A stretch of 64,000 bases of DNA from Tachypleus tridentatus. Lineage: Eukaryota; Arthropoda; Merostomata; Xiphosura; Limulidae. The translations under genes and the position numbers were made by a program. This document shows, piece after piece, positions 4,715 to 59,311 of this stretch. The stretch covers positions 160,125,310 to 160,189,309 of the forward strand of contig NC_134837.1 of the NCBI RefSeq assembly GCF_004210375.1, read 5' to 3'. Numbering within the stretch: the stretch's first letter is position 1; each line of letters starts with the position of its first letter. Under the pieces are notes generated by a model, which did not search any database, was not told the DNA's origin, and saw only the letters and a list, made by a program, of their open reading frames with translations.

Positions 4715-4936
4715 TTGCAGTTTTCCGGATTCTGCGCTTGGAGAGGGTAAAGGAAGGACATGCCTCTGAAAGGCTCTTGATTTCTACGTATACAACCCAT
4801 ATTTCGCTTCATATTTTGGTAGTGTTTTTACTATTCACTTTGAGTTTTACGCCAGTAGACACAAAGACAGAAGACCTTATTACCATTTGAATTAGCCCAA
4901 GACAGGAAGTACAACTTCGCTAAACAACGAGGCGAC

Positions 4937-6498
4937 ATGCCGGCCGGGGAGTCGGAGACCAGGGAAAGCGATGTAGCGTCTGAGACTGAGGGAGCAAGCC
5001 CGTCTGTTTAAGGGACAAAAAGTAAGTCTAGTGACTGTGGCCAAATAGATAATGAGGATGTAAAATTAAAATCTTTAATGTTCGTAGCGGAAAAGGAACT
5101 AAAAGCAAGGTTAGCGCCTATTAAAGAAAATACTATTAGGACTAGAAAAAAAAGAAAGCAAGTAAAAGATATTATGCCTTCAACATCTGAAGATAGTGTA
5201 GCTAAGACTACGGTTAAAGACTATAATATGCCAACAACTAGCAGTTCTAGCAACCCAAACCCCACCCTGGATATTCCACAACAAACAAGTTCAGACAAAG
5301 ACGAAGTTCTTTCTGACGACGAAGGAATCATGCTTGTGCAGATTCGAAGTCAGAAAAAACAAATTAAACAAAGACCAACCACCACAGACACACATACACA
5401 ACTCGCACCAAAATCACCTAAGCACGCAATTATAATCCAAGGAGTTCCTGGTAGTTTCAACCAACCACAATTAGCCAAAGAAATATACAGGTGCAAACCT
5501 AACACAAAGATTACTAATATTAAGCGTCTGCCCAGAGGCGGTGTTCTGGTTCAAGGACAGGAACCCGCTGACTTTAACAGTCTACTAAAAGCTTGGCCTT
5601 CAGACGCGTTCAAAACAGGAAACATTACAATACACCTACCAGGAACTAAACCAACACCGAAATCTTTTGTGATACGAGGTGTACATAATTCAATAGACAT
5701 AGAAGACATTAAGGAAGAGTTAAGTACACAAAACATAAAACATATTTCAGTAGACCGCATAATTTCAAATATTACTAAAAGACCCACAAACCTAATCAAA
5801 GTAGTCACAGACAACAGCCAGGATATTACACAATTCATTAATAATGGTATCACTATGTGGTATCAAAAGTACACAGTAGAACAAACAAAAACACCAGCAG
5901 TGGTTGTCACACAGTGCTACCAATGCCAAAGGTTTGGACATGTAGCAGCAGCATGCCAAGCAAATGCGCGTTGTGTGGGCTGTGGGGGAGAATCACCACA
6001 TTACACAGTGTACAAAACAGAACCCCAAACCCAAATGCTGCAATTGTGGGGAAGAACACACGGCAAATTATAAAGGTTGTCAGAAATATAAATCCATTAA
6101 AACATACTTATACGAAATTAAAAATCCCAACATGAACAAGCCGCCACTACCACGAACCATTAAGGAACCCACACCTACCACTCCAGCACCACAAAGTACA
6201 ACTACACAAATAAACACTTACGCTGCAGTGGTTAAAAATTCATCATCCCGACAGGAAAAAACCATCACCATGTGAAGAGGAAATACCAAAACCACCTCAA
6301 AATACACAAGCAACAACAATTGAAACAACACTGACATCTGCCATAACTTCCACTTTCTCGGAAATAATGGCAGAATATACAAACCCTACAAACACCAACA
6401 GTTTCACAGACATAATAGTTAAAATCATTTTGAAAAACATACACAAATTCCTGCCGCAAATTTTAACCTCCATCATAAACTCTACTAAACATGGATAA
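4937..6498 (+). pseudogene. LINE ORF1 (gag-like RNA-binding protein), outer copy, broken
   Basis: The nucleic-acid-binding ORF1 protein of the LINE. ATG 4937 is preferred because the frame is shared with the inner copy from its equivalent ATG (13027). In this copy a TAA at 5009-5011 cuts it after 24 codons, and a longer open stretch restarts at Met 5078. Order: charged/Ser-rich N-terminus; a tandem RRM-like region starting IIIQGVPGSF and continuing with RLPRGGVLVQ and FVIRGVHNSID (Jockey ORF1/PRE_C2HC type); then CCHC knuckles CYQCQRFGHVAAAC, CVGCG.NHHITQC and CCNCGEEHTANYKGC. Two apparent +1 errors (a G5 run at 5984-5988, an A6 run at 6256-6261) shift the frame. Allowing for both, the ORF ends at TAA 6496-6498, overlapping the ORF2 start. 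Confidence 0.85.
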
Positions 6499-8199
6499 CT
6501 TCACAGTTCTACACATCAATATCCAGGGTGCTCTTGCTTCCAGGAAACATGAGATTGAAGATACAACAAGCTCCATAAAACCTGATGTAATTATAATTAG
6601 TGAAACTCTCTTATATAACTACCATCGATTTAAAATAAACGGCTACTCCATTATTAGACATGACAGGAAGGATAATAGAGATCCAAACAGAGGTCTTTTA
6701 TTATTGCATAAAACTGAACTTATAGTTCAGGAACTTACTATCCATTCCAGTAATGAATCTATAATTATTAATGTAAAAACGCAAAATCATACAGACGTTA
6801 CTGTGGCGGGCATCTACTGCTCGCCTAGAACTGTGTTAGATGTAAATCTATTGAATATATTGTATAATAGCAACTGTAATCTTATTATTATCGGTGACCT
6901 AAACAGTAAACATATAGCATTCAACTGTCGTAGTACAAACGCAAATGGCAATTTACTTTTTCAATTTTTGGATGAATCAAATATGACTTTATTAAACGAT
7001 GCAACACCGACACATATCTCGTACGCACACGGCACCAGTGAAATACTGGACTTATGCCTGTGTTCGTCAAATATGAGTCGCAAATTCGTAAATTTTCATG
7101 TTGGTCACGATATAGATAGTGACCACCTCCCAGATTGGTGTATCTTCAATCTCACCCCCACTTAAATAAAATCATAGTGAGAGACCAACTGAACTACAAA
7201 AAAAGCTAATTGGCCAGTTTTCCAAACTATATTAAATGAAACCTTACCTCCAGAAGTACTACATATTGCCGCGGACGCATCAGATATAGATGCATACTGT
7301 CATATCATCTCTGAGTGTCTAAAACAGGCAGCCAACAGTTCGATACCGAAACAAAAACACTTCACAACAACTCATTCATGGCAACCACATAAAGACATAA
7401 TACACTTAATTAAAAACAGACGTATACTCCGCAGACAGTACATTCAAAATCGCAACCCCACACTTAAAACTCAGATAAACACAATAAGGAATAAAATACG
7501 AAACTTAATCAGAAACAGAAACAAGAAAACTGGGACACCTTCTGTTCCGATCTAAATCACAAAACTGATCCTAAACAATTCTGGACACACTTGAAAAGAT
7601 TTACATACACGGGAACAACAAACACAGTATATCCACCACTGGAACTGGATGGAGAAACAGCATACACTAACACAGAAAAAGCCGAGATATTTAAAAAACA
7701 CCTAGAAAACACGTTCAAAACACATCATGAACCAGACATGAACAGATACTTTTATAATACAGTCATAAACTTTATTGATCAAAACAGAAGCATTTTTACA
7801 CCTAAATTTCCAGTCAACACTATTACACACCAAGAAAAAACAAAAGACTGGAGCACTCATCAACTGATAAAACATATCACTGTAACAGAAGTCGTAACTG
7901 CTATTAACAACACAAAAAACAAAGCCCCTGGAGAAGATGGTATTCAAGCTATCCTCCTAAAACAAGGCACTCAGAGATTATATGAACTCCTAACAGCGTT
8001 ATTTAATCTCTCACTATCAGCTGGATATATCCCCGTTTCTTGGAAGGAAGCAATAGTATTAATGTTCCAGAAAGAAGGAAAGCCAGCGAATAAACCAAAC
8101 AACTACCGCCCGATTAGCTTAACCAGTTGTATTGGCAAAGTATTAGAGAGGATAATTAGTAATCGTCTGTCAGTTTACTTAGAAGAAAATTCAAAATTA
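6491..8199 (+). pseudogene. LINE ORF2, endonuclease and first half of RT, outer copy
   Basis: Starts at ATG 6491, which overlaps the ORF1 stop. The first ~224 codons are an APE-type endonuclease: LHINIQGA, II.SETL, VAGIYCSP, IIGDLNSKH and the C-terminal SDHLP. The frame is lost at a C5 run (7155-7159), then at an A7 run (7198-7204), and a third time around 7520. The RT then runs from the KRFT region near 7591 with KAPGEDGI, SWKEAIVL and NYRPISLTSCIGKVLERII. It stops where the inverted copy entered, right after EENSKL. In the live element ORF2 would cut target DNA and reverse-transcribe the RNA there. Confidence 0.88.
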
Positions 8200-8218
8200 G
8201 TTTGACTGTGTGGGTATT

Positions 8219-8244
8219 TGGGTATTGATGTTGTTAAATACCCA
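8219..8244 (-). other. 3'-terminal hairpin of the LINE, inner copy
   Basis: Perfect 8-bp arms TGGGTATT/AATACCCA around a 10-base loop, 19 bases from the element's 3' end. The same hairpin is at 14742-14767 in the outer copy. LINEs with non-poly(A) ends often use such a stem for recognition by their RT; the role here is inference. Confidence 0.7.
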
Positions 8245-8707
8245 GGAGGGTCAGGTACATTTGATCTCTTCCTCCCTCCCGAACGATTATAGCGTCTGTC
8301 TTTAGGGTTTTTTTTTTTTTTTTTTTTTTAAGCTTTGGGCCAGAGTAAAAGTATAACATCATACTCAGGTCCATTTCAGGGCTCAGTCCATGCATGGACG
8401 AACAAGAAGTTTTTTTTTTTTTCCATTTAATTTTTTTTTTGTATTTTCATATATATATATATTTTTGTATTTTTTCTCCTTTTTCTCGATTGAGAGAATG
8501 CTACTACTACTTGTAGTAACACAAACACTCACACAGAAAAGAAAGTAATAATAATTATTATTATTCAATACTTGAATAATAATTCAAAAAGAGAAGAGAA
8601 AAAATAATAATAATAATAATGATTAAAAAAAGAAAATAATAATTATAAAAATAAAAGAAACAAGGACTAAGTGTCTAGTGGATAGTGGCCAGCTTGTGTT
8701 ACATTTC

Positions 8708-11476
8708 TTAAATATATGTTAAAAGGAGAGGTATTTAGGACCATTTACATCATGTACGTGATATCTGTCGAGATCACACATTAAGTCATTTTGTGCCAAT
8801 TGTTATTGAAATATTTTAGAGAATTATGCAAGAGTCTTTCAGCTATTGTATCTATGTTTGCATACTTGTGCATGAATGTGGTTGAGGTGCTACGTGGTAC
8901 TTTGTATGCTGAAGTTAGTACAGAATTTTGTATACGTTGAAGTTTCTGTACATGTGTGGGTGCTATGTTAATCCAGGCAGGTGATGCATATTCTATTGTT
9001 GGTCTAATGTACGTTTTGTAGATTTTAAGTATGTTGTCTGGTGATGTTCCTTGATTTTACCTGAAAGACTTCTTGCATAGTTTGCTCTTTTCCAGATTCT
9101 TATCAGTACATTTTAATATGTGGTAGCCACGTTAATTTTGAGTCATAGGTTAGACCTAGAAATTTAGCAGAAGTAGCAGTCAGTAAAAGTGATCCATTCA
9201 TATAGAGTTTTGGTGGATCTTTTTTCAGCTTATTCAGTCTGCTGAATACTATGACTTGGGTTTTTGGAATATTAATTTTGATTCTGTATTTTTGGCAGTA
9301 TTCTTCGATGTTATTTAGGACTGGTTGTAGGTTCGTTGCTGCTATTGACGGAGTGGGGGCACTTTTCCAGACTGCTACATCGTCAGCGAACTGTGATGCA
9401 TAACCTAAATTTAGGTCCGACAGAGGCATATTACTCACGTACATGATAAATAATATAGGCTAACAACCCCTCCCTGCGGGACTCCTGCTTCGGGTGAAAA
9501 GGACCCTGAGTGGGCCCCATTTACATTTACTTTACACATTCTGTTATCCAGGAAGTTGGACAGCCAGCGAATAGTTTCCTGGGGTAATGCCATTTCAAGC
9601 AATCTATGTCTTAAGCCGTTATGCCACACTGTGTCAAATGCTTTCTCAATGTCGAGAAAGCAAGCTACAGTGCATTCTTTTTGTTGAAGCTGTCGGTAAT
9701 TGATTCTGTAAGTCGAATCAGGTGGTCTGTAGTTTGGCGGTTTTTTCGAAATCCGTTTTGAATTTCTGGTAATTTTGAATTTTCTTCTAAGTAAACTGAC
9801 AGACGATTACTAATTATCCTCTCTAATACTTTGCCAATACAACTGGTTAAGCTAATCGGGCGGTAGTTGTTTGGTTTATTCGCTGGCTTTCCTTCTTTCT
9901 GGAACATTAATACTATTGCTTCCTTCCAAGAAACGGGGATATATCCAGCTGATAGTGAGAGATTAAATAACGCTGTTAGGTGTTCATATAATCTCTGAGT
10001 GCCTTGTTTTAGGAGGATAGCTTGAATACCATCTTCTCCAGGAGCTTTGTTTTTTGTGTTTTTAATAGCAGTTACTACTTCTGTAACAGTGATATGTTTT
10101 ACCAGTTGATGAGTGCTCCAGTCTTTTGTTTTTTCTTGGTGTGTAATAGTGTTGACTGGAAATTTAGGTGTAAAAATGCTTCTATTTTGGTCAATAAAGT
10201 TTGTGACTGTATTATAAAAGTATCTGTTCATGTCTGGTTCATGATGTGTTTTGAACGTGTTTTCTAGGTGTTTTTTAAATATCTCGGCTTTTTCTGTGTT
10301 AGTGTATGCTGTTTCTCCATCCAGTTCCAGTGGTGGATATACTGTGTTTGTTGTTCCTGTGTTTGTAAATCTTTTCAAATGTGTCCAGAATTGTTTAAGA
10401 TCAGTTTTATGATTTAGATCGGAACAGAAGGTGTCCCAGTTTTCTTGTTTCTGTTGTCTGATTAAGTTTCGTATTTTATTCCTTATTGTGTTTATCTGAG
10501 TTTTAAGTGTGGGGTTGCGATTTTGAATGTACTGTCTGCGGAGTATACGTCTGTTTTTAATTAAGTGTATTATATCTTTATGTGGTTGCCATGAATGAGT
10601 TGTTGTGAAGTGTTTTTGTTTCGGTATCGAACTGTTGGCTGCATGTTTTAGACACTCAGAGATGATATGACAGTATGCATCTATATCTGATGCGTCCGCG
10701 GCAATATGTAGTACTTCTGGAGGTAAGGTTTCATTTAATATAGTTTGGAAAACTGGCCAATTAGCTTTTTGTAGTTCAGTTGGTCTCTCACTATGATTTT
10801 ATTTAAGTGGGGGTGAGATTGAATATACACCAAACTGGAAGGTGGTCACTATCTATATCGTGACCAACATGAAAATTTACGAATTTGCGACTCATATTTG
10901 ACGAACACAGGCATAGGTCCAGTATTTCACTGGTGCCATGTGCGTACGAGATATGTGTCGGTGTTGCATCGTTTAATAAAGTCATGTTTGATTCGTCCAG
11001 AAATTGATAAAGTAATTTGCCATTTGCGTTTGAGCAACGACAGTTGAATGCTATATGTTTACTGTTTAGGTCGCCGATAATAATAAGATTACAGTTGCTA
11101 TTATACAATATATTCAATAGATTTACATCTAACACGGTACTAGGCGAGCAGTAGATGCCCGCCACAGTAACGTCTGTCTGATTTTGCGTTTTACATTAAT
11201 AACTATAGATTCATTACTGGAAGGGATAGTAAGTTCCTGAACTATAAGTTCAGTCTTATACAATAATAAAAGACCTCTGTTTGGATCTCTATTATCCTTC
11301 CTGTCATGTCTAATAGTAGAGTAGCCGTTTAATTTAAATCTATGGTAGTTATATAGAAGAGTTTCACTAATTATGATTACATCAGGTTTTATGGAGCTTG
11401 TTGTATCTTCAATCTCATGTTTCTTGGAAGCAAGAGCACCCTGGATATTGATGTGTAGAACTGTGAAGTTATCCAT
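8708..11476 (-). pseudogene. LINE ORF2 (endonuclease-RT), inner copy, frameshifted
   Basis: Runs from ATG at 11476 down to a TAA at 8708-8710, roughly 920 codons. The endonuclease (LHINIQGA, SETL, GIYCSP, GDLNSKH, SDHLP) is followed by a linker and RT with KAPGEDGI, NYRPISLTS, FRKNRQTTDHLI, GVPQGGVVS and the catalytic FADD (about 9370). The C-terminal region contains KIYKTYIRPTIEYASPAW. Breaks are single-base and mostly in homopolymers: T4 at 11189-11192, G5 at 10809-10813, T5 at 10766-10770, T5 at 9678-9682, plus a missing base after VVS (9458-9459) and before the C-terminal domain (9111-9114). No domain is missing, so the family was competent recently. Confidence 0.88.
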
Positions 11477-13027
11477 GTCTAGTAGAGTTTATGATGGAGG
11501 TTAAAATTTGCGGCAAGAACTTGTGTATGTTTTTCAATATGATTTTAACAATTATGTCTGTGAGACTGTTGGTGTTTGTGGGATTTGTATATTCTGCCAT
11601 TATTTCCGAGAAAGTGGAAGTTATGGCAGATGTCAGTGTTGTTTCAATTGTTGTTGGTTGTGTATTTTGAGGTGGTTTTGGTATTTCCTCGTCACTTGGT
11701 AATGGTTTTCCTGTCGGGATGATGAATTTTAACCACTGCAGCGTATGTGTTTGTCTGTGTAGTTGTACTTTGTGGTGCTGGAGTGGTAGGTGTGGGTTCC
11801 TTAATTGTTCGTGGTGGTGGCGGCTTGTTCATGTTGGGATTGTTAATTTCGTATAAGTGTGTTTTTATGGATTTATATTTCTGGCAACCTTTATAATTTG
11901 CCGTGTGTTCTTCCCCACAATTGCAGCATTTGGGTTTGGGGTTCTGTTTTGTACAATGTGTAATGTGGTGATTCTCCCACAGCCCACACAACGCGCATTT
12001 GCTTGGCATGCTGCTGCTACATGTCCAAACCTTTGGCATTGGTAGCACTGTGTGACAACCACTGCTGGTGTTTTTGTTTGTTCTACTGTGTACTTATGAT
12101 ACCACATAGTGATACCATTATTAATGAATTGTGTAATATCCTGGCTGTTGTCTGTGACTACTTTGATTAGGTTTGTGGGTCTTTTAGTAATATTTGAAAT
12201 TATACGCTCAACTGAAATGTGTTTTATGTTTTGTGTACTTAACTCTTCCTTAACGTCTTCTATGTCTATTGAATTATGTACACCTCGTATCACAAAAGAT
12301 TTCGGTGTTGGTTTAGTTCCTGGTAGGTGTATTGTAATGCTTCCTGTTTTGAATGCGTCTGCAGGCCAAGCTTTTAGGAGACTGTTTAAGTCAGCGGGTT
12401 CCTGTCCTTGAACCAGAACACCGCCTCTGGGCAGACGCTTAATATTAGTAATCTTTGTATTAGGTTTGCACCTGTATATTTCTTTGGCCAATTGTGGTTG
12501 GTTGTAACTACCAGGAACTCCTTGGATTATAATTGCGTGCTCAGGTGATTTTGGTGCGAGTTGTGTATGTGTGTCTGTGGTGGTTGTTTTTTGTTTAATT
12601 TGTTTTTTTCTGACTTCGAGTCTGCACAAGCGTGAAGCCTTCGTCGTCAGAAAGAACTTCGTCTTTGTCTGAACATGTTTGTTTTTGAATATCCAGGGTG
12701 GGGTTTGGGTTGCTAGTACTGCTAGTTTTTGGCATATTAAAGTCTATAACCGTAGTCTTAGGTACATTGTCTTCACATGCTGAAATCATAATATCTTTTA
12801 CTAGTTTTCGTTTTTTTCGAGTCCTTACAGTATTTTCTTTAACCGGCGTTAACTTAGCTTTTAGTTCTTTTTCGGCTATGAACATTAAAGATTTTAATTT
12901 TAAATTATCATTATCTGTTTGGCCACAGTCACTAGACTTACTTTTTTGTCCCTGAAACAGACGGGCTTGCTCCCTCAGTCTCAGACGCTACATCGCTTTC
13001 CCTGGTCTCCGACTCCCCGACCGGCAT
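11469..13027 (-). pseudogene. LINE ORF1, inner copy, frameshifted
   Basis: Same protein as the outer ORF1. It starts at ATG 13027 (MPVGESETRESDV), where the outer copy has a TAA shortly after its own start; here that codon is TCA. The RRM-like region (IIIQGVPGSYNQPQL, RLPRGGVLVQ) and the CCHC knuckles (CYQCQRFGHVAAAC and two more) are present. Frame breaks: an extra A near 12945, an extra A near 12607, and one base too few at 11976-11978, 11706-11709 and about 11738. Once these are allowed for, the end falls on a TAA (11469-11471) overlapping the ORF2 ATG, exactly as in the outer copy. Confidence 0.85.
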
Positions 13028-13210
13028 GTCGCCTCGTTGTTTAGCGAAGGGGTATTTCCTGTCTTGGGCCAATTCAAATGGTAATAAGGTCTTCTGTCTA
13101 CTGGCGTAAAACTAAAATTCGAAGTGAAAAGTAAAAACACTAACAAAATATGAAGCAAAACACGTAGAAATCTAGAGCCTTTCAGAGGTATGTCTTTCCT
13201 TTACCTATTA

Positions 13211-14276
13211 CCAGAAATTCAAAACGGATTTCGAAAAAACCGCCAAACTACAGACCACCTAATTCGACTTACAGAATCAATTACCGACAGCTTCAACAAA
13301 AAAGAATGCACTGTAGCTTGCTTTCTCGACATTGAGAAAGCATTTGACACAGTGTGGCATAACGGCTTACGACATAGATTGCTTGAAATGGCGTTACTTC
13401 AGGAAACTATTCGCTGGCTGTCCAACTTTCTGGATAACAGAATGTGTAAAGTAAATGTAAATGGGGCCCACTCAGGGTCCTTTTCACCCGAAGCAGGAGT
13501 CCCGCAGGGAGGGGTTGTTAGCCTATATTATTTATCATGTACGTGAGTAATATGCCTCTGTCGGACCTAAATTTAGGTTATGCATCACAGTTCGCTGACG
13601 ATGTAGCAGTCTGGAAAAGTGCCCCCACTCCGTCAATAGCAGCAACGAACCTACAACCAGTCCTAAATAACATCGAAGAATACTGCCAGAAATACAGAAT
13701 CAAAATTAATATTCCAAAAACCCAAGTCATAGTATTCAGCAGACTGAATAAGCTGAAAAAAAATCCACCAAAACTCTATATGAATGGATCACTTTTACTG
13801 ACTGCTACTTCTGCTAAATTTCTAGGTCTAACCTATGACTCAAAATTAACGTGGCTACCACATATTAAAATGTACTGATACGAATCTGGAAAAGAGCAAA
13901 CTATGCAAGAAGTCTTTCAGGTAAAATCCAAGGAACATCACCAGACAACATACTTAAAATCTACAAAACGTACATTAGACCAACAATAGAATATGCATCA
14001 CCTGCCTGGATTAACATAGCACCCACACATGTACAGAAACTTCAACGTATACAAAATTCTGTACTAACTTCAGCATATAAAGTACCACGTAGCACCTCAA
14101 CCACATTCATGCACAAATATGCAAACATAGATACAATAGCTGAAAGACTCTTGCATAATTCTCTAAAATATTTCAATAAGAATTGGCATAAAAATGACTT
14201 AATGTGTGATCTCGACAGATATCACGTACATGATGTAAATGGTTCTAAATACCTCTCCCTTTTAACATATATTTAA
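13211..14276 (+). pseudogene. LINE ORF2, second half of RT and C-terminus, outer copy
   Basis: Continues the frame broken at 8199 with PEIQNGFRKNRQTTDHLIRL. Then come CFLDIEKAFDTVWH (RT motif A with catalytic Asp), GVPQGGVVS (motif B), a one-base loss at 13522-13523, QFADDVAVW (motif C), INIPKTQVIVFSR, LGLTYD, another one-base loss at 13867-13870, and the C-terminal region up to TAA 14274-14276. The A6 run after FNK is intact here, whereas the inner copy has lost one base. Confidence 0.88.
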
Positions 14277-14786
14277 GAAATGTAACACAAGCTGGCCACT
14301 ATGCACTAGACACTTAGTCCTTGTTTCTTTTATTTTATAATTATTATTTTCTTTTTTAATCATTATTATTATTTTTTTTTCTCTTTTTGAATTATTATTC
14401 AAGTATTGAATAATAATAATTATTATTACTTTCTTTTGTGTGTGTGTGTGTTACTACAAGTAGTAGTAGCATTCTCTCAATCGAGAAAAAGGAGAAAAAT
14501 ACAAAAAAAATATATATATGAAAATACAAAAAAATATATATATGGAAAAAAATTAAATGAAGAAAAAAAACAAAAAACTTCTTGTTCGTCCATGCATGGA
14601 CTGAGCCCTGAAATGGACCTGAGTATGATGTTATACTTTTACTCTGGCCCAAAGCTTTAAAAAAAACAAAAAAACAAACCCTAAAGACAGACGCTATAAT
14701 CGTTCGGGAGGGAGGAAGAGGTCAAATGTACCTGACCCTCCTGGGTATTTAACAACATCAATACCCAAATACCCACACAGTCAAAC
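14277..14786 (+). other. 3' UTR of the LINE, outer copy, with terminal hairpin
   Basis: Noncoding 510 bp: AT-rich simple repeats (about 14335-14560), then a more complex segment ending CCCACACAGTCAAAC. An 8-bp perfect stem with a 10-base loop sits at 14742-14767. There is no poly(A) tail. The end is fixed by the 12-bp TSD that follows. Confidence 0.8.
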
Positions 14787-14798
14787 TTGCAGTTTTCC

Positions 14799-15120: not shown

Positions 15121-16985
15121 CGTTTACAATCGTTCAAACTGTTGCAGAAGTCCTGTCGCTTCGATACGTGCTGATGGCGTTTCGTCAGTACTGTTTTTGA
15201 ATGCTGATAAAGCATCAACTATTCTCTCCCAGCCTTGAATAAGACTTCTGCATTAATTTTTGCATGCTGACCAGCATTTATCAGACAGCTTCTTCATGGA
15301 TACTGTATGAGCGGATTTATAAATATAGGTTTGCAAAGTTTCCTTCCAGTGAATGGACGTCATATAAAACCTACATAGTTGCAGAAAGATATTGAAGAAG
15401 AAATATACAGCATTATATGCTCATACCAGTTAGAATGATTATGTTGAGCATGGTAAATATATATACAGCGAGTGAATTATTTCCTTTAATTCTAGATTGT
15501 AAGTCACTATAATGACCAGGTACATTGCTTGCATTGTCATATGGCTGTCCTCGACAATTGATGAGATTGAGTTCATGCAATTGGAGAGTGATGAATACTG
15601 CGTCAGAAACCTCTTCTGCTTGATGACTTACATTTGGGATGAAGCAGAAAAATCGTTCAACAGGAGATCCGTCGTCCTTTACGTGTCGTAATATGATGAA
15701 AAGTTCATCAACATGAGAGACACCAGGTGTTGAATCAACGCTGATGGGAAAATTATTTAGCGTACTTTGTTTTCTTAATAATTTCTTTTTTCACCATTTC
15801 CACCATTAATTGAATACATTTTTCACAAGTATAACACGAAAGGTAGGATGTGTCTCCTTTTCCTTTATTTCCAAAATGCAAATTATGTTCAGCCAAAAAC
15901 AGATCACATTCAGTAATAAGTTTAAGTGGCATTGCATAGTTTCCATTATGCAATGAATCAGATCGCTCATCTGCCCTAATGAAAGGAAAGCTCTGTGCAA
16001 AAAGTTATTTAACGACAGTAACCATTCGGTTAAGTATATTCCTCTAGTAATTTATCTTGTGATCTACTTGCTAGGAAATATTTACATATATTCTGCTCAA
16101 GACATTTCCTCTTTTTTTCAGAGTTATCACACACATAATCTGTACTCAAATGAACTTTCGTGTTCATTCAAACGAGCGATGCCATTTTTCCAGTTCTTGA
16201 TGCCTTCCTTTGCTATTTGGGTTTTTCCACCAAATGAATGACTTGTAGTGCAGATTACTTCCCAATATTTTTGAAATATACTAGATAGCTATATTTGTGT
16301 ATCTCCCTCCATTCAGCATCTGTGACCTCTGTAATGCCTCTTGGAAAATGAGAAACCATCGTTTTGCACAACTCCATGAACAGCCACATAATCTCAAATA
16401 AGGTTATTCATAATCCACTCAGTTGCTTGTTTGTTTGTTTGTTTTTGAATTTCGCACAAAGCTACTCGAGGGCTATCTGTGCTAGCCGTCCCTAATTTAG
16501 CAGTGTAAGACTAGAGGGAAGGCAGTTAGTTGTCACCACCCACCGCCAACTCTTGGGCTACTCTTTTACCAACGAATAGTGAGATTGAGCGTAACATTAT
16601 AACGACCTCAAGGCTAAAAGGGCGAGCATGTTTGGCGCAACGGAGATGCGAACCCACGATCCTCAGATTACGAGTCGCACGCCTTAACACGCTTGGCCAT
16701 GCCGGGTCCCATTCAGTTGCATCAGTGCTAATACCAATGTTCGAAATTTCATCATGTTTGCTTGTGCTTACAGATAATTTAATATTTTCCTCAATCTTTA
16801 AAACACTAACATTTTGGTAACTTCCACCTTTAAGAAAATAGTCTGTAGACGTGTTTTCGGCCCATGTATTAAGCTCAACGTTGCTTATGTCGCAGTAAAG
16901 CAAAATACCTACTGCCCACGTAGGTCTAATTTCCATTTCAGTATGTTCAACATTACACACATTTTTCGACTGCTTTGTCACGTTT
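15121..16985 (-). pseudogene. ZMYM1-like/DUF4371 hAT-related gene relic 1
   Basis: Pieces of a zinc finger MYM-type-1-like protein (domesticated or mobile hAT-transposase relative) appear in the correct order on the minus strand. An N-terminal region with TWAVGILLYCDISNV is at ~16860-16950. A TTF-type zinc-finger segment (GIKNWKNGIARLNEHESS) is at ~16170-16230. LITECDLFLAEHN is at ~15900, followed by ISVDSTPGVSHVDELFIILRH (~15690-15740), NCRGQPYDNASN (~15530-15560) and NSTDETPSARIEATGLLQQF (~15130-15190). Stops and frameshifts lie between the pieces, and a SINE (16427-16709) interrupts it. The function is lost. The family is recognised from memory of the DUF4371 hallmarks ISVD.T.D.SH and CRGQ.YD.A..M.G. 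Confidence 0.75.
16427..16709 (-). repeat. tRNA-derived SINE, family 1, inside the ZMYM1-like relic
   Basis: A well-preserved copy in reverse: oligo(TTTG) tail at 16427-16446, body with CTCTTTTACCAACGAATAGT, head ending GGCCATGCCGGG. An 11-bp TSD with one mismatch (CACTCAGTTGC 16416-16426 / CATTCAGTTGC 16710-16720) shows it entered the relic after the relic existed. Confidence 0.92.
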
Positions 16986-17084: not shown

Positions 17085-18177
17085 CTGTTAAGAGTGTTAA
17101 TCCTTCGGTATTGTTTTAAGGGTTCTTGTACTGTCGTGCGAATTGTACGAATGCATTTATGATTGCCTTGACTATGAAATTTGTCTCAGTCTCATTTACT
17201 GTGATTTGTTGTTTCTGAATTTGTTTTATTGGCATTTTCATGTGATGTGTTCTTGGGGCCTGTGCATACATATTATTTTTAGTTTGTACCGGTGCATTTT
17301 GTACTATTGGCATAGGTAATAGTGGTGTTTCTTCAGTGTAATTGGTTTGTTGATTTAATGTGCCTGTTTCAGTTTGCTTTGTATATATGTTTTATTCTAA
17401 TTTTGATATCCTTATATTTAGAATATCCTTTAAAGTTAGCTGTCAGCAATTATAGCATAGTGAGTTTTTGTGTTGTTGTGAGCATTATGAGTTGTGGTGG
17501 TCCCCATCACAGCTCACACATCAATTTGTTGCTTCCTCCACCCGAAATCTCTGGTACCACAATATAATACCCTCAGATAATTATACTGTGGATGTGCTGT
17601 AATTATGTTATGCTTTGATCATGTTGATTGATTGTTGTATTTTACTAGAAATAACGCGCTCTATTTTTGTGTATATGATGTTCCTGTCTCTTAGTATTTT
17701 TTTTCTGTGTCTATTCTTATATTTAGATCTTTGGATACAAACGTTTCTGTATGTGTACTATGATATTTTCTCAAGCCATTGTTGCAGAACTCTTTTAAGG
17801 TCAATGCCCTCTGTTCCCCTACTACCGAAGATACCACCTTTGAGTAACCTTTGAAGGCTGCTATTTTTACTTCTAGTTTCAAGCGTTTAATTTCTTTTCT
17901 AAGTTGTGGTTCTTTGTAACTACCTGCGACGCCTTGTAATATAAAGACAAATTTTGGTTGTTGTGTGTATTGATTTGATGACTTTGGTTTTTTTTTTGTA
18001 GTTTGTTTGTTCTGTTTTGATTGTTCTTTTGGCGTTACTAGAATGAAATAATTTTTATTTGATGTTTATGTTGGTTCTGTGCATGTTATCTGTTTCTTTA
18101 TAGGTCTGATATATTTGTTCCTCTTGAACTTTGTCTTTGGTAGTATCTGGAGCAGCCATCTTAGTGCCTATGCTCAT
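17085..18177 (-). pseudogene. LINE ORF1 relic (Jockey-like), no ORF2
   Basis: A decayed homologue of the ORF1 at 4937-6498. From a probable start Met at 18177 (MSIGTKMAAPDTT) one reads KPKSSNQYTQQPKFVFILQGV, GSYKEPQLRKEI (RRM-like core), then the zinc-knuckle region CVSCDGDHHNS.CSQQHKNSLCYNC around 17420-17525, then a lysine-rich tail. Several in-frame stops and frameshifts. It is more diverged than the 4.7-14.8 kb copies, so it is an older insertion or a different subfamily. No endonuclease or RT follows; the sequence runs into the ZMYM1-like relic. Confidence 0.72.
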
Positions 18178-22760: not shown

Positions 22761-23673
22761 TTTATATGTGTATTGCACTGTCCGCTATTATAAAAATGAA
22801 TTTCTTTTTTTATTAAAAATATGCTTGATTAATTCACAGCACTTACTTGAGGTATCTTGCAATTTTTCTTAATTTCTAACAACATTTTGTAAAGATTTTA
22901 TTTGAATCTGTCAGAGTATTAATTCTCTCCATTTTGTTATTTTAGTAGCAACACCACACTAGTACTGGATGTTTTAAAAGGGAAGAATTACCTCTGATAT
23001 ACTTACCTGCACCTGTAAGGAAAACTCATAATGTGAAAATTGCAAACTTATGTTGGTAATGATAGTCACAGAATTAAAAACAGCCATGTGTTGCACTACT
23101 TTGTATTTAACACAAGACAACTTTAACAACTTTAACAACTTTTGAAAACATAATAACCTTACTTGCTTTCTCTTTAATTTAAAATTAATGTGTTGCGAAT
23201 TCAAGTCACAAATAAAGTGAGAAATTTAATAACTTGCCTGTTTAAACCACTTTTCTATCATTTTATTTCATAGATACAACAAATTGAGACTACAGAAGCG
23301 GTAAGGTGTTCTGATAAATTTGCACACTACTATGTGACCCTACAAGTTGTTAAAGATGGTGTTATGTTATCAGATAAGTTCTCATGAGTAGGTTTTAATT
23401 TTTTGATTCATTTAAAAGAATGGATAACATCTAGGCTGCATCTGAAGATTACAGCCAATCATGTGTGCAACTCATAATGCAGCATTTTCACCCTGATTGG
23501 CAAAAGATCTGTCAAGATAATAATTAACTGAGCATCTGTGAAGTTGATCTTTGCCATCGCAATCCCTTAACAAACATTTGTGAACTGATATAAAACATAC
23601 TGCATACTAAATCCAAGCTATTTCTGTGGTGAATAAATCTGTTCAGAAACTGCTTATTTCGGTTGTAGGTAAG
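22761..23673. other. No gene recognised
   Basis: AT-rich sequence with no recognisable features except a short AACTTTAAC direct repetition near 23120. Confidence 0.45.
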
Positions 23674-23767
23674 CCTTCACTCTAGTCTATCACTTTTAAA
23701 TAAGAAACGGCTAACGTAGATAGTCTTCGTGTAGGTTTTGGAGAAATTCAAAAACAAACAAACAAAA
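23674..23767 (+). repeat. SINE family 1, 3' fragment
   Basis: Only the tail half is left: CTCTAGTCT, AACGGCTAACGTAGATAG, GTGTAGGTTTTGGAGAAATTC and an (AAAC)n end. 5'-truncated or eroded copy. Confidence 0.75.
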
Positions 23768-24198: not shown

Positions 24199-24470
24199 TT
24201 TGGTGTGTTCAAAATTTTGCATAAAGCTGCACGAGGCTATCTACGTCAACCTCCCCTAATCTAATAGTGATGGATTAGAAAGAATGCTGTTAGTCATAAC
24301 CATCCACTGTCAACTCTTGAGCTGCTCTTTTACCAACGAATAGTAAGATTTATCGTAACATTATAACGCCTCTAGACTGAAAAGGGGGCATATTTGGTGA
24401 GATGTGGATTCGAACCCAAGACCCGCAGATTGCAAGTCGAAGGCCCTAACTACCTGTCAATGCCAGACCC
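24199..24470 (-). repeat. tRNA-derived SINE, family 1, old copy
   Basis: All parts are present in reverse, but with many substitutions. Possible 11-bp TSD with two mismatches: CTGTTCATACG 24188-24198 / CTGTTCGTAAG 24471-24481. Confidence 0.85.
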
Positions 24471-24870: not shown

Positions 24871-25159
24871 GGCCCGGCATGGCCAAGCGTGTTAAGGCGT
24901 GCGACTCGTAATCTGAGGGTCGCAGGTTCGCATTCCCATCGCGCCAAACATGCTCGCCCTTTCAACCGTGGAGGCGTATAATGTGACGGTCAATCCCACT
25001 CGTCGTTGGTAAAAAGAGTAGCCCAAGATTTGGCGGTGGGTGGTGATGACTAGCTGCCTTCCCTCTAGTCTTACACTGCTAAATTAGGGACGGCTAGCAC
25101 AGATAGCCCTCGAGTAGCTTTGTGCGTAATTCCAAAACAAACAAACAAACAAGCAAATA
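24871..25159 (+). repeat. tRNA-derived SINE, family 1, well preserved
   Basis: Head GCCCGGCATGGCCAAG, anticodon-loop-like CTCGTAA, box B-like region, body CAAGATTTGGCGGTGGG and tail ending in (CAAA)n. No clear TSD found. Confidence 0.92.
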
Positions 25160-25879: not shown

Positions 25880-27010
25880 TTTTGACCTAACTAGAGACCA
25901 CCGTCCGATCTCCTTCAATATTTCACACAACAAACAGGAAGTACGAACGGGTCTACAATTACACAAGAACTGACTGACGACGTAGCTGTCTGAAGTGTGT
26001 CGTGCAACTCAATAATTGCAAGTAACAGAATTCAAGAATCACTACATTCCATCCTTAATTGGTGTAACGACTAGCGATTCCTCCTAAATCTGCACAAAAC
26101 AACTGCCATCGCATTCAGACGCAACCTAAACAAACATCACATGAACCAGAAAAAGTAAACCTTAAACTAAACAACAGCATAATAAAGCTAAGCCCCTATG
26201 CAAAATGTCTAGGAATAACGTTTGACACACGATTCTCCTGGATATAACATTTCAAAATCATAAACAAATCAGTTAACAAGGGAATCTATCACTTAAAACT
26301 TATTACAGAAGACAATAAAGGATGCACACCTAATACCATCATTAATATCTATAAAACCTACATTTATCCTCTAATCGAAAATGGCTCTCAAGTCACGTAC
26401 AGCATGCAAAAAAGCATCACTAGAACACCACAACTCTAACAAAAGAGAGCCCTCATAGTGGATCTTAAGCTACCCAAACTTACTCCAATTCAACTACAAG
26501 CATGAAGCTTGCAACATTCCCCGACTCAAGGTCCAATTAAAAACATTAGCTCACAACTATTATCAAATAGCGGAAAAAAGAAACTCCTTAGCTGCCAAGC
26601 TACAAACCATGACAAGCGCGCCACACAAAACATATACATGGCCTCCAAGACATCATAAAACAATAACAAACCACACTTCACAAACACACCATCTCAGGTA
26701 CTAATCTTTATTTATGTTTATCTTTATCTCAGCTTTGGGCACAGAACAGGTAGAACATTCTGCGCCTGTTTTGTGAAAGTGGGGTTTCTCAGGTTACTCC
26801 GTCTCTCCTACAGCAGATTCTGAGGCACTTGAATTTACTGATCCCAACCATTCCTTGACCCTGATCACGGGACGTTTAATGGATGTCCGTTGTCTTGTTT
26901 CTTTTCGTTCTTCTGTCAAGTCATGCCACCGACCTACACGGACATTGTCGGTCCAACGGCCCTTATTGCCTTCTCTCGGTCTTCTTGTTCCAACTAGACT
27001 ACTTTATATG
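25880..27010 (+). mobile_element. LINE relic: RT C-terminal part and 3' UTR
   Basis: Plus-strand remains of a LINE RT: a short HRPISF-like piece near 25900, then TDDVAV (eroded .ADD motif) at ~25973. Next are LHSILNWC, LHKTTAIAFRRNLNK (the IN..KT....F. region) at ~26090-26130, YAKCLGI, IYKTYIYPLIENGS (~26350-26390) and a C-terminal stretch to ~26690. Many stops and an internal deletion between the first two pieces. The 3' UTR (~26700-27010) contains GTGGGGTTTCTC and GTTACTCC at 26779-26800, homologous to blocks in the half-LINEs to its right. The half-LINE at 27024-30507 is inserted in or at the end of this UTR. Confidence 0.65.
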
Positions 27011-27733
27011 CACTTTTTTGAAATGAAATGCTTGATAGGTATTTAGGTTAATTTATAATTTCGTTCCCCAAAGGTGAACGAAAAATAGCCAGGGGCGGTC
27101 AGAAACTATTGTTTCTCTTCACCCCACACGAGGCAAGAATAAATTAGTCAACTGATCACGAAGATAATTAAGTGAATTGGAGTAGCATGTTGGTTGTTAA
27201 TCAAGAGCGATGGTCACTAATGACCTTGAAGTTGACAGTTTTATGTATCTAACTGAGGAGCGTCGGGAAACAGCTGAGAAGTGGACCGACGAGCCTGAGA
27301 GAAAACGAAGAACGAAAGGAAAAGGTTCAACACAACATTCACAAGCGTCTGAAGAATTACGTGGTGTAAATATTGTCGAAGTGAAGGGAGCAGAGAGATG
27401 CAAACACAGTACGCCGACATAATGAGGACTCATGACTTGGATTAACTAGACTTTAAACACTTAAAATTTAGGTACTAAAGAACGGACCACTTTTCAGGGA
27501 TGGGATCTATAGATCCTATGAAACGGAACTTTTGCTGTGGGGAAAACGGGAGTACCCCGAGAAAACCCACTTGCGCGACCAGGGCGCCGAATATAGGTCC
27601 TGACCGTGTCTGGAAGAAGAGCTGTAAGGAAAGAAAAATACAAGGATTAATTACAAGGAACATACAGTAGCACTTACAATAACAAAGCAAATGACAATAA
27701 TAAACAAAGGTTGCAACTAGGATACGTTTAAAA

Positions 27734-28061
27734 CTAAGAAGACGAATGTTCTGAAGGACATGGCGGATCATCTGTGATGCATAGGTCTGATTTTAGCTTG
27801 GACGAAGGAGGATAGATGAGGAAATTCTTGTTTCTAGGCAGAATGTTTCTAATCTGGAGTTCTTTCTGTGCTAACTTGCTGGATGCTCTCGTGAATCGCA
27901 TGTCTCCAGGATACTGGGTTTCTTGATTAATCATGGCTTTAAGAAACAGCGTCTGCTATTTGGACATTATCGGTCGAAGCATAGGTTTCACAAGTTTTAG
28001 TCTCTTCAGTGGTGGTTTGGGTGCTCTGGCATATTTTGTTACCGAAATCTGTTTGGAAACA
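27734..28061 (-). pseudogene. Half-LINE ORF1, C-terminal part, outer copy
   Basis: Continues the frame cut at 29833: QTDFGNK, CQSTQTTTEETKTCE, STDNVQIADAVS. A stop and small deletion follow near 27940, then the final stretch NQETQYPGDMRF...PSSKLKSDL, ending at the stop 27734-27736. The TQT motifs match the inner copy. Confidence 0.75.
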
Positions 28062-29832
28062 GACAGACAGACAGACTTGGTAGGTATTTAGGCTAAATTA
28101 TTCTTTCGTTCTCCAAAAGTCGAACGAAAAATAACCAGGGGCGGTCAGAAACTATTGTTTCTCTTCACCCCACACAAGGCAAGAATAAATTAGTTAATTG
28201 ATTATGGAGTAAGTTATATGGACAGGAGTGGCATGTTAGTTATTCATCTAACGTGATGGTCACGAATGACCTAGAAGTTGATAGTTTGTTGAATTTAATT
28301 GAGGGGCGACGGGAAAAGCTGAGAAGAGTTCCTGCCGACCGGAGAGACAACGAAGAAAGATGAGGAAGGTTCAGCACAACACCCACAAGCGTCCGAGGAG
28401 TTATGATGTGAGAATATAGTTGACATGGAGAGAGCCGAGAGATGCAAACACGGTACCCGACATGATTAGGTCTCGTGACTTGAATGTTTTAGCCTTTAAA
28501 CATTTAGAATTTTGGATATTTAAAATTTAGATACTAATTTAAAATTTAGATACCAAAGTGACGTACCTCTTTTCAGGGCTGGGATCTATAGATCCTACGA
28601 TACGGAACTTTTGCTGTGGGGGGAAACGGGAGTGCCCCGAGAAAACCCACTTTTACGACCAGGGCGCCGAATATAGGCCGTGGTCGTGCCCGGAAGAGGA
28701 GCTGTAAGGAAAGAAATAACACAGATTAATAACAAGCAACATACGGTAACACTTAGAATAATAAAGCAAATTGTAATAATAAAACATAGAGGTAGTAACT
28801 AGGATGTGTTTCGATTCGAACTATAATAAAGACTGTTTTGAAGGATTTGGCGGATCTTCTGTGACGCATGGGTTGGATATTTGGTTGAACGGGGAGACAT
28901 GATGAAATTTCCTCTAATAAGCTGGAGATTATTCAGTATAATCTTTGTGGATGCTTTCGTGGTGCGTAGATCTTCAGGATACTGGGTATTTTGATTAATC
29001 GTGTCTGTCTTAGTTTGAGAAACCGCGTCTGCTGTTTGGATATTATCAGTCGAGGTGGAGGATTCACAAGTTTTTGATCCTTCGTTGATGGTTTGTGTGC
29101 CCTGGGATATTTTGTTTTCAAAATCTGTTTGGGTAAACTCTTCTGATGTTTGGTTTTCAGTTAGCGGGGTGGCTGTGGGCATATTGGATATTCCGCTAGG
29201 CTGTGGTACAGGTGTAGGTTGCTTAGGAGTTTTAGGTTTAGTTGGACGGCGTTGGGGGCGTTCGGCACTATTATGGAAAATATGGTAGTAGCAGCCATTC
29301 CGTAGAATGGTATCGGCGATGGGTTTACTGGTTGTTACAATCTTCATGAAGTTAGTGGCTTGACGGGAGGATTTTGAATAAATCCGGTGAACAGCGTAAA
29401 TCACTGATTGGGTCTGGTTTTCAACAGCGCATTTAATTTCATACGGTTGAATGGAGTGGTGCACTCCTTTAAGAAAACTGTGAATAGGCTAGTAGGGCTT
29501 TTCGTGGGAGCACAACTAATTTTCATCGGGGTATTCCATGGCTTACAGAGATAGGACAAATCTTCAGGCGTAGACGGCTGGAGAAGGATTCCCCCTCGGC
29601 GTAGAATTCGTATTCTTGACGGGTCAATGGAAGCGCCGGGCTTAGCCTGCGCAATGAATGTGGCGATTTGAAGAGGCGAAAGGTGAGGCGGTAAGCCGTC
29701 GACGATTACCGGCGGGACAGTTGGCGGGATCGGCACAGCAGGACCAGGTAATGACAACGTCATTATGGTATAGCAGGAGCAATGTAGAAACACGTCTGAC
29801 TAGCATGGAGTCAAAGCTGGGCTCGTAAGGTG
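28062..29832 (-). mobile_element. Half-LINE, inner copy, complete
   Basis: A 1771-bp copy of the same family in the same orientation, inserted in ORF1 of the outer copy. 13-bp TSD with one mismatch: CTGTTTGGAAACA 28049-28061 / CTGTTTGGGAACA 29833-29845. The 5' leader begins CACCTTACGAGCC (29832 downwards). The 3' end is a (GTCT)n simple-repeat tail (28062-28076) after CCTACCAA. The 3' UTR holds a 14-bp perfect palindrome GGATCTATAGATCC (28582-28595), the GTGGGTTTTCTC block (~28610-28650) and a hairpin with TTTCGTTC/GAACGAAA arms at 28104-28129. Confidence 0.85.
28799..29763 (-). pseudogene. Half-LINE ORF1, inner copy, one frameshift
   Basis: ATG at 29763, stop at 28799-28801; ~321 codons once a single missing base near 29475 is allowed for. 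Order: Pro-rich N-terminus (SLPGPAVPIPPTVPPVIVDG); an RRM-like region (ATFIAQAKPGASIDPSRIRILRRGGILLQ) parallel to RLPRGGVLVQ of the Jockey-like ORF1; a second RRM-like part (LFTVFLKGVHHSIQPYEIK ... RIYSKSS.QATNFMKIVT); a basic linker (ERPQRRPTKPK); then a Ser/Thr/Gln-rich tail with TQT twice (EEFTQTDFE, SQGTQTIN). No CCHC knuckles. Probably an RNA-binding chaperone acting in retrotransposition (inference from the homologous region). Confidence 0.75.
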
Positions 29833-30460
29833 CTGTTTGGGAACACTTATCGGTTGATTGATTTATAGCTTGCTGAGGGTCGATGGGCGGAGTGGATATT
29901 CCGTTAGGTTGCAAGACAGGTTCAGGTTGCTTAGGTGTACTTGGTTTGGTTGGGTGGCGTCGGGGGCGTTCGGCACTAAAATGAAAGATATGATAATAGC
30001 AGCCATTCCGTAGAACGGTATCGGCAATATGTTTACCGGGTGTTACAATTTTCATGAATTTGGTAGCTTGTTGGGAGGATTTCGAGTAAATCCTGTGCAC
30101 GGCGTATATAACTGACTTAGTTTGGTTTTCAACGGCGCATTTGATTTCACTTGGTTGAATGAAGTGCTGTACTCCTCTCAGGAAAACAGTGAACAGGTTA
30201 GTAGGTCTCTTGGTGGGTGCACATCTGATTTTAATAGGGGTATTCCATGGCTCACAAAAGTAGGATAAGTTTTCAGGCGTAGACGGCTGGAGGAGAATTC
30301 CCCCTCCGCGTAGAATTCGCGTTCTGGAAGGGTCTAAGGAGGCGCCAGGCTTAGCCTGCGCAATAAACGTGGCAATTTGAAGAGGCGATAGGCCGTCGAC
30401 GATTACCGGCGGGACCGTTGGCGGGATCGGCACAGCAGGACCAGGTAATGAGAACGTCAT
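29833..30460 (-). pseudogene. Half-LINE ORF1, N-terminal part, outer copy
   Basis: ATG at 30460. The same protein as the inner copy with a small deletion after VDGL. It runs open through the RRM-like region to DKCSQT, where the inner copy inserted. The frame joins correctly to QTDFGNK of the 27.7-28.06 kb part when the TSD is counted once. Reading on across the junction gives a spurious C-terminus from the inner copy's leader. Confidence 0.78.
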
Positions 30461-30520
30461 TCTTGTATAGCAGGAGGAAAAAAAAAAAAAAAAAAACACG
30501 TCTGACTCACTTTTTTGAAA

Positions 30521-41044: not shown

Positions 41045-43160
<2,116 letters not shown>

Positions 43161-45307: not shown

Positions 45308-45565
45308 CAGCCTGGCATGGCCAGGTGGTTAAGGCATTTGACTTGTAATCCGAAGGTTCGAACCCCTCCACACCAAACATGCACCACCATTCAGTTGTGG
45401 GGGCATTATACTGTGAGGGTCAATCCCACTAGCCATTGGTAAAAGAGTAGTCCAAGAGCTGGCAGTGGATGGTGTTGACAAGCTGTCATCCCAATAGTCT
45501 TACACTGCTAAATTAGGGATGGCAAGTGCAGATAGCCCTCATGTAGCTTTGTCCAAAATTCAAAC
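45308..45565 (+). repeat. tRNA-derived SINE, family 1
   Basis: Complete: head GCCTGGCATGGCCAGG, body, tail CAGATAGCCCTCATGTAGC. Exact 12-bp TSD CAACTTCATTAT at 45296-45307 and 45566-45577. A few bases are missing in the T-arm region. Confidence 0.93.
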
Positions 45566-46990: not shown

Positions 46991-47262
46991 TTGTTTGTTT
47001 GTTTTTTTGGAATTTCGCACAAAGCTACTCGAGGGCTATCTGTGCTAGCCGTCCCTAATTTAGCAGTGTAAGACTAGAGGGAAGGCAGCTAGTCATCACC
47101 ACCCACCGCCAACTCTTGGGCTACTCTTTTTACCAACGAAAAGTGGGATTGACCATCACATTATAACGCCCCCACGGCTGGGAGGGCGAGCATGTTTGGC
47201 GCGAACCCGCGACCCTCAGATTACGAAGCGCACGCCTTAACGCGCTAGGCCATGCCAGACCC
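46991..47262 (-). repeat. tRNA-derived SINE, family 1
   Basis: Well-preserved reverse copy with a (TTTG)n tail. 10-bp TSD with one mismatch: ATCGAGTGCA 46981-46990 / ATCGATTGCA 47263-47272. Confidence 0.92.
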
Positions 47263-51950: not shown

Positions 51951-52878
51951 CTTCTTCTTCATGTGTCAAATCTGCGGCAGACATCGACGACCATGACATG
52001 CCAGACTTCTCTGCTGTCAAGCTTCCTTATCAACTCGATGTTGCTCATTGAGTTCTTGGTAACATAGTTATTGAGGTTGTCGATATATTTAGTTCTTTGA
52101 CACCCTCTGCTTTTCCTCCCTTCTATTTTTCCACATAGCATCTGTTTCTCTATCCCATTCTTCCTACAGATGTGTCCTAGAAATTTCATTTGTCTCTTTC
52201 TTATAGTTTTCCTGCCAGTTCCATGACTTCCACATTTGTTTTTCTTTCAGTCCATGATATTTTTAGCATCCTTCTAAGGAACCACATTTCAGCAGCTTCT
52301 AATCTCTTCTCTGTATCTTTGTTCAGTGTTCAGCTCTCACAGCCATATAAGAGAACAGACCATACATATGATTTCAAGGTGTTAATTTTAGTGACATTTG
52401 TTATGTTCCTGTTTGTGAATATGGACTTCATTTTATTGAAAGTATCCTTGGACATTGCAATTCTTTTCTTTATTTCTGTGTCACTCTTTGCATTTGATGT
52501 TATAGTATATCCAAGATATTTGAAGCTTTCGACTTGTTTTATTCTCACGTCCTTGCCGGTTATGCTACATGTGGGTGTAATTGATTGTTTTGAGATAACC
52601 ATGCACTCTGTTTTCTTTGCATTTAACTGTAAGCCTTTTTCTTCACTCTCGTCTACTGTTGTTGTGAGGAGAGTCTGTAGATTTCGTTTGGAGTCCGCAA
52701 TGAGGACTGTGTCATCAGCGTAGCGCAAGTTGTTGATTTGCATCCGCCTACTTTGACTCCCTGATGTTCATTGATGTTTCGTAGGATTATTTCGCTGTAT
52801 AAGTTAAAAAGATCTGGTGAAAATACACATCCCTGCCTCACCCCTCTTTCAATTGATCTATATTCACTCAATTCATTC
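51951..52878 (-). mobile_element. RTE-clade LINE, 5'-truncated, decayed RT
   Basis: Exact 10-bp TSD AGGGTACCTT at 51941-51950 and 52879-52888. Minus strand: RT motif B region [21 protein letters not shown] (~52780-52840), one-base frame break, then [14 protein letters not shown] (catalytic YADD, ~52690-52735). These are followed by GLQLNAKKTECMVISK, FKYLGYTITSN, and the C-terminal FLGHICRKNG...GRKSRGCQRTKY region after another break. The stop codon is followed almost at once by (GAA)n, the very short 3' UTR and trinucleotide tail typical of RTE elements. Confidence 0.88.
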
Positions 52879-59215: not shown

Positions 59216-59311
59216 CTCTACCTGTAATCAGCAATTCAATGGATAGGTGTTTTTTGTTTTTTTTTATCTTGCGAGAAAGTGAACAAATGATTTATATCCT
59301 TCAACGGGATG

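Follow-up and report, generated by a model that had tools for sequence, protein, structure and literature searches.

A stretch of 64,000 nucleotides of the horseshoe crab Tachypleus tridentatus (contig NC_134837.1, positions 160,125,310 to 160,189,309; here called the window) contains two nested copies of a transposable element that consists of a leader, one open reading frame (ORF1) and a 3' untranslated region (UTR) of about 0.7 kb, and in which no endonuclease (EN) or reverse transcriptase (RT) was detected. The element appears to hitch-hike on a related LINE (long interspersed nuclear element) retrotransposon. It is probably a non-autonomous, ORF1-only LINE derivative, here called the half-LINE, that would encode its own RNA-binding protein and borrow EN and RT in trans. 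Comparison of the two copies shows that ORF1 remained under selection during the active period of the element.

Structure of the nested copies and selection on ORF1

The inner copy is the younger one and lies inside the older outer copy, within its ORF1 (Table 1). When the two halves of the outer copy were joined for comparison, their alignment to the inner copy ran unbroken across the insertion point. A preliminary description of this DNA had given both copies target-site duplications (TSDs) of 13 bp; this is exact for the outer copy, whose duplications are identical at 13/13 positions, whereas those of the inner copy agree at 12/13. Among 200,000 position pairs drawn at random from the window, 26 agreed at 12/13 or better when a slack of 3 nt was allowed. 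The two copies are 81.5% identical, with 308 differences in 1,665 ungapped aligned bases (gap-counting blastn identities of the two outer parts to the inner copy, 80.7% and 75.6%), and all comparisons of this kind rest on n = 2 copies, both in the 64-kb window. The alignment is collinear with short gaps only, and the junction of ORF1 with the 3' UTR is common to both copies. They also have a common 3' end, up to the last few bases, and their tails are not poly(A), being (TCTG)n in the inner copy and CAAGCATTTCA in the outer one. The outer copy starts 31 nt inside the start of the inner copy, so that at most one of them has a complete 5' end. A run of 19 A (plus strand) is present in the outer leader (30478-30496) and missing from that of the inner copy.

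The absence of EN and RT was assessed with six pieces of the ORF2 of LINE-A, an EN- and RT-bearing LINE of the same window, none of which matched 27024-30507 better than E = 0.35. The search of Pfam with four pieces of ORF1, which did not extend to the UTR, gave nothing significant (sole match, E = 0.22), and Rfam at the gathering threshold gave no match. These results confirm the two-copy, ORF1-only element that had been proposed. The further proposal, that both copies are LINE-type units and transposed as such, draws support from the TSDs, the common 3' end, the common ORF2-less junction and the match of the 3' UTR to that of a neighbouring ORF2-bearing LINE remnant, LINE-B.

An ORF1 is present in each copy, as first described, but it is intact in neither, since the inner ORF1 carries a single 1-nt frameshift near 29477 and the outer one is broken downstream of the insertion. 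Over 207 aligned codons, the differences at codon positions 1, 2 and 3 number 22, 22 and 67 (binomial p = 5e-9; 10.6% each for first and second positions), and dN/dS is 0.23 (0.15-0.35). The value for the part with the predicted RNA recognition motifs (RRMs; 163 codons, residues 1-165, a cut set after seeing the alignment and the model) is 0.14 (0.08-0.23). Read in the two other frames, the aligned ORF1 stretch gave 2.0 and 1.5. Triplet periodicity (p < 0.05) was found in four of eleven segments along the element, those starting at 0, 150, 300 and 450 nt, and in none of the later seven. Within the first 95 codons, positions 1 and 2 together differ at 3.8% (7/182) and position 3 at 31% (28/91); CpG is not the explanation, as the values were still 3.2% and 29% with CpG sites removed. 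Mutations that follow insertion hit all codon positions alike, and 3.8%, although taken from the most conserved part of ORF1, is thus a rough bound on them. Most of the third-position divergence of 31% therefore arose in active sources with ORF1 under selection. That the element was already ORF1-only at the time of selection follows if ORF2 was lost once, as the common junction suggests. In an element unable to copy itself, selection on ORF1 finds its simplest explanation in an action of the ORF1 protein (ORF1p) in cis.

The ORF1 protein, the 3' UTR and related LINEs

The half-LINE ORF1p probably contains two tandem RRMs, the first of them weakly predicted. In the AlphaFold model of the outer ORF1 (mean pLDDT 54.5), values of 72-82 were obtained for residues 101-150 (RRM2) and of 49-60 over most of RRM1. 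A Foldseek search of PDB with this model returned 49 matches at E <= 0.001, RRM proteins by title (prob 0.99-1.00), among them 6m75, which we take to be an RRM protein. TM-scores were only about 0.2-0.35, which may reflect two domains that the model does not place relative to each other. By sequence comparison, this ORF1 is a distant relative of the ORF1 of LINE-A, with 24% identity over 148 columns in BLASTP (E = 1e-7). A profile comparison by hhalign, which is not a measure of identity, gave 91.6% (E = 8e-7), with three sequences per side, of which one half-LINE row ran past the frameshift. The LINE-A ORF1 model was better in RRM1 (78-91, residues 1-70) and poor in RRM2; its 46 Foldseek matches at E <= 0.001 were RRM-type except one, SerB2. 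The two models share alignment rows and are not independent of each other.

LINE-A itself is present as a complete copy hosted by a second copy of opposite orientation. The two are 95-96% identical, and a TSD (AAATTCAAAA) of some 10 nt can be recognised by eye. Their 3' ends are not poly(A), and the Pfam domains Exo_endo_phos_2 (E = 5e-19) and RVT_1 (E = 9e-8) were identified. Each LINE-A copy has one strict and one or two loose matches to the CCHC zinc knuckle, and the Pfam matches to PRE_C2HC (0.018) and zf-CCHC (0.06) do not reach the curated cut-offs. By the same search, positive for both LINE-A copies, the six frames of both half-LINE copies contain no strict or loose CCHC match.

Type I (IB) ORF1 proteins, found in LINEs of the Jockey lineage and also in other clades, possess two tandem RRMs and, downstream, three CCHC knuckles (PMC4120745). 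The half-LINE resembles this type in its predicted RRMs (indicated by AlphaFold, Foldseek and homology to LINE-A, with none by Pfam) and differs in lacking CCHC after them. Since type I has the knuckle after the RRM, the half-LINE ORF1 fits the type in its RRM half only; LINE-A appears to fit it, with fewer CCHC matches than the three of the type. Judging from the ORF1 type, which is not confined to one lineage, the half-LINE probably belongs to the Jockey superfamily. Pattern searches with ORF1 in a viral and a genome contig collection, both with hardly any animal DNA, gave 13 and 67 matches, none of them a relative. In the viral collection, the LINE-A RT gave one pattern match, no relative, and a pattern of the 3' UTR hairpins gave none.

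The 3' UTR links the half-LINE with LINE-B, which adjoins the outer copy on the opposite strand. Two C-terminal ORF2 fragments of this remnant show 31% and 36% identity to the LINE-A ORF2 (E = 6e-5 and 1.5e-4), and no LINE-B ORF1 was found in the window. About 155 nt of the half-LINE 3' UTR match LINE-B. The scores were 78 and 76, whereas the best shuffles reached 45 and 43 (0/200 each); nhmmer gave E-values of 2.9e-5 and 9.2e-6, and the reverse-complement control was negative. Because the match begins at the ORF2 stop of LINE-B, the half-LINE can be read as the leader, the ORF1, about 70 nt and the 3' UTR of an ORF2-bearing LINE. The outer copy was inserted 174 nt past the matched stretch, in opposite orientation, which is probably still within the LINE-B 3' UTR. 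LINE-A was rejected as direct donor of the 3' UTR, the similarity not being above that of shuffles (39/200 reach the score).

The matched stretch forms a predicted hairpin domain. Its first hairpin, folded alone, has -16.9, -9.5 and -18.3 kcal/mol in the three sequences (the two half-LINE copies and LINE-B). Five pairs of the outer stem of the second hairpin are kept in all three, one of them as G-U, and this stem does not belong to the minimum-energy fold of LINE-B. Compared with shuffles, the whole domain folds better in the inner copy alone (z -3.5; outer copy 0.26, LINE-B -0.98), and the 3'-terminal 130 nt does so in both copies (Table 1). The copies differ by 11.9% in the hairpin domain and by 10.6% in the terminal block, compared with 20.7% in the rest of the UTR. 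The last 19 nt or so bear a weak likeness to the LINE-A terminus, which is a hint only; between the putative end of LINE-B and that of LINE-A there is no likeness beyond chance (9,492-12,868 of 20,000 shuffles reach the score). An open plus-strand frame in the 3' UTR (27210-27422) was rejected as a hidden ORF, its differences being without triplet periodicity. At the start of the 3' UTR (about 28700-28755 and 27620-27675, minus strand), a conserved GTATGT ... TTTCTTTCCTTACAG resembles, by eye, the donor and acceptor of an intron of about 50 nt.

Proposed mechanism and alternative explanations

The half-LINE would have originated by loss of ORF2 from a LINE with a LINE-B-like 3' UTR. Translation of its RNA would yield a small RNA-binding protein (fold predicted) that has two RRMs in tandem and lacks zinc knuckles, and this ORF1p may then coat the RNA that encodes it. 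A related LINE, the putative partner, would supply EN and RT in trans, and its enzyme could recognise the common 3' UTR domain, the non-poly(A) 3' end, or both. Copying of the RNA by target-primed reverse transcription would leave the 13-bp TSDs and the ends seen here.

Several observations weigh against this explanation. It is drawn from two copies only, and the ORF1 model has the modest AlphaFold confidence given above. An ORF1 without CCHC knuckles may not work as that of the parent did; in SART1, these knuckles package RNA (PMC4120745). Past codon 165 or so there is no sign of constraint, with dN/dS of 0.66 (0.30-1.71) for the remaining 44 codons and of 0.86 for the C-terminal tail of 105 codons. 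The synonymous divergence (dS 0.54) clearly exceeds that of the ORF tail (0.31) and is about twice the Jukes-Cantor distance of 0.24 in those parts of the 3' UTR that lie beyond the conserved blocks; this excess could reflect different histories of parts of the two copies. The match to LINE-B covers only about 155 nt, with none past the insertion site (156/200 shuffles reach the score), and LINE-B breaks four of the ten pairs of the first hairpin on alignment columns, forming the hairpin only in its own register. The likeness to the LINE-A terminus is weak, since for the last 25 nt the score is reached by 21 of 20,000 shuffles in the inner copy and by 766 in the outer one, and for a 40-nt terminus by 237 and 2,089.

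The main rival explanation is that an as yet unseen full-length LINE gave rise to ORF2-less copies recurrently, by RNA splicing from the end of ORF1 to the region of the ORF2 stop, so that the common junction would be a splice junction and the selection on ORF1 would be that of the parent. Splicing would leave the signs described here: it, too, predicts a junction that is fixed although the copies have diverged, and the LINE-B homology begins at the ORF2 stop. However, the pyrimidine tract with CAG (TTTCTTTCCTTACAG) is retained immediately 5' of the hairpin domain in each copy, which means that this acceptor was unused, and an nhmmer search with the half-LINE as query detected no full-length parent in the rest of the window, a search space of only 64 kb. 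We consider this explanation unlikely.

It is very unlikely that the copies are real half-LINEs produced in small numbers as a minor by-product, with no family life of their own. Such an origin would suit the finding of just two copies in the 64 kb, of which one is nested in the other, but active sources of long standing are required to account for the excess of third-position over first- and second-position differences within the first 95 codons. Slightly less credible still is an origin as retrocopies of a host gene that was once a LINE ORF1 and became domesticated, as with L1TD1, the retrocopies having moved as processed pseudogenes. The purifying selection on ORF1 and the compact coding unit agree with a domesticated gene. 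Against it speak the lack of poly(A), the 3' end common to the two copies and the 3' UTR stretch in common with a LINE; the copies were likewise rejected as processed pseudogenes in general, for their lack of a poly(A) 3' tail. Least probable of all is an accidental origin in which a normal LINE lost its interior twice, by separate deletions, the alternative by which the preliminary description would have been overturned: LINE copies are often broken and the window has further LINE debris, but both copies are collinear from ORF1 into the 3' UTR with short gaps only, and the same junction despite 18.5% divergence, together with the purifying selection on ORF1, disfavours it.

A short interspersed nuclear element (SINE) was rejected as an identity of the half-LINE on the grounds of its length of 1.7 kb and its ORF under selection; no tRNA gene was found in the window with ARAGORN, the sole promoter test. 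Other repeats of the window include a SINE-like family of about 280 bp with about eleven copies, the partial one included, which are 68-91% alike and have a tRNA-like start by eye. Another LINE remnant is probably present at 17850-17987 (minus; 44% identity over 50 aa to the LINE-A ORF1, E = 6e-7), and an RT fragment of a different LINE, RTE-like by eye, lies at 52333-52767 (minus; RVT_1, E = 3.4e-12). The start of an ORF at 41045-41377 (plus) resembles histone H3 by eye.

Table 1. Positions in the window of the half-LINE copies, their parts and other repeats.
Feature	Position	Strand	Remarks
Outer half-LINE	27024-30507	minus	inner copy within; 1,700 nt when the insert and one TSD copy are excluded
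Inner half-LINE	28062-29832	minus	1,771 nt; inserted in ORF1 of outer copy, same orientation
Outer TSD, 3' side	27011-27023		CACTTTTTTGAAA
Outer TSD, 5' side	30508-30520		CACTTTTTTGAAA
Inner TSD, 3' side	28049-28061		CTGTTTGGAAACA
Inner TSD, 5' side	29833-29845		CTGTTTGGGAACA; 12/13
Outer ORF1, N-terminal part	29833-30460	minus	ORF1 start 30460; predicted tandem RRM; open to insertion point
Inner ORF1 before frameshift	29477-29763	minus	ORF1 start 29763; shift position approximate
Inner ORF1 after frameshift to stop	28799-29476	minus	RRM2 (predicted) and Q/T-rich tail, the latter with no codon constraint detected
3' UTR hairpin domain, inner	28577-28731	minus	homologous to LINE-B 3' UTR
3' UTR hairpin domain, outer	27498-27649	minus	
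3'-terminal conserved block, inner	28062-28193	minus	predicted stem-loops; z = -3.1 for 28068-28197
3'-terminal conserved block, outer	27024-27154	minus	predicted stem-loops; z = -2.7
LINE-B remnant	26161-26704	plus	C-terminal ORF2 fragments; stop of last frame 26702-26704
LINE-B 3' UTR stretch common with half-LINE	26699-26849	plus	starts at ORF2 stop
LINE-A	8200-13205 (about)	minus	EN and RT; ORF1 with RRMs and CCHC; complete copy
Second LINE-A copy	4746-8199 and 13207-14787	opposite orientation	hosts the complete copy
SINE-like copies	1474-1744, 16430-16706, 24213-24470, 24872-25150, 45310-45564		
SINE-like copies	46994-47256, 56381-56642, 56765-57013, 58929-59207, 59311-59562		
SINE-like copy, partial	23673-23766		

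Comparison with known ORF1-only elements

The precedents found for an ORF1-only LINE derivative are mammalian HAL1 and Drosophila HeT-A. HAL1 is described as a non-autonomous LINE derivative that encodes ORF1p only and arose several times in mammals (PMC5753468), and the L1 ORF1 as type II, with one RRM after a coiled coil (PMC4120745). The half-LINE shares with HAL1 the non-autonomous, ORF1-only organisation, and HAL1 had been named at the outset as the known precedent; it stands as one precedent but not as the sole one, HeT-A being gag-only as well. HAL1 is derived from L1 and has a poly(A) tail, whereas the half-LINE has two predicted tandem RRMs, an ORF1 related to that of a CCHC-bearing LINE, and no poly(A), and it was rejected as HAL1 proper on these three grounds. 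HeT-A is reported as an element without long terminal repeats (non-LTR) and without pol, presumed to rely on TART or TAHRE for its enzyme, with a long 3' UTR and with head-to-tail arrays at chromosome ends (PMC5537684). The gag-only constitution and the long 3' UTR are thus features in common, whereas the half-LINE copies are nested, TSD-bounded and situated among other repeats. The Gag of HeT-A also has zinc knuckles, unlike the half-LINE ORF1.

LINE-B, with which the half-LINE has about 155 nt of 3' UTR in common, differs in the presence of ORF2 C-terminal sequence. As a kind, then, the half-LINE combines an ORF1 without EN or RT, movement as a unit, and a 3' UTR shared with a LINE over part of its length; it works like HAL1 and HeT-A and is a member of neither. 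Among the matches listed in a literature search, no title or abstract opening names an ORF1-only LINE of a horseshoe crab or other chelicerate, and in the portion consulted, the horseshoe-crab genome paper treats LINEs just as a class (PMC7815833).

A bolder reading, which we hold to be rather unlikely, is that the half-LINE is a long-lived parasite, or a regulator, of a LINE, and keeps under selection a stripped two-RRM Gag without knuckles that could redirect the ribonucleoproteins of its partner to half-LINE RNA or damp the transposition of the partner, much as Ty1 is controlled by a truncated Gag. If this reading were true, the half-LINE would represent an arthropod division of labour between gag and pol like that of HeT-A and TART, outside telomeres.

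ORF1-only LINEs offer a natural test of whether a LINE must have an ORF1 protein of its own in cis if its enzyme is provided in trans. A third case, with a knuckle-less ORF1 whose RRM part was under purifying selection, would mean that such a life style is a recurrent one and that retention can be limited to the pair of RRMs, and the 3' UTR domain is a possible handle for the borrowed enzyme.

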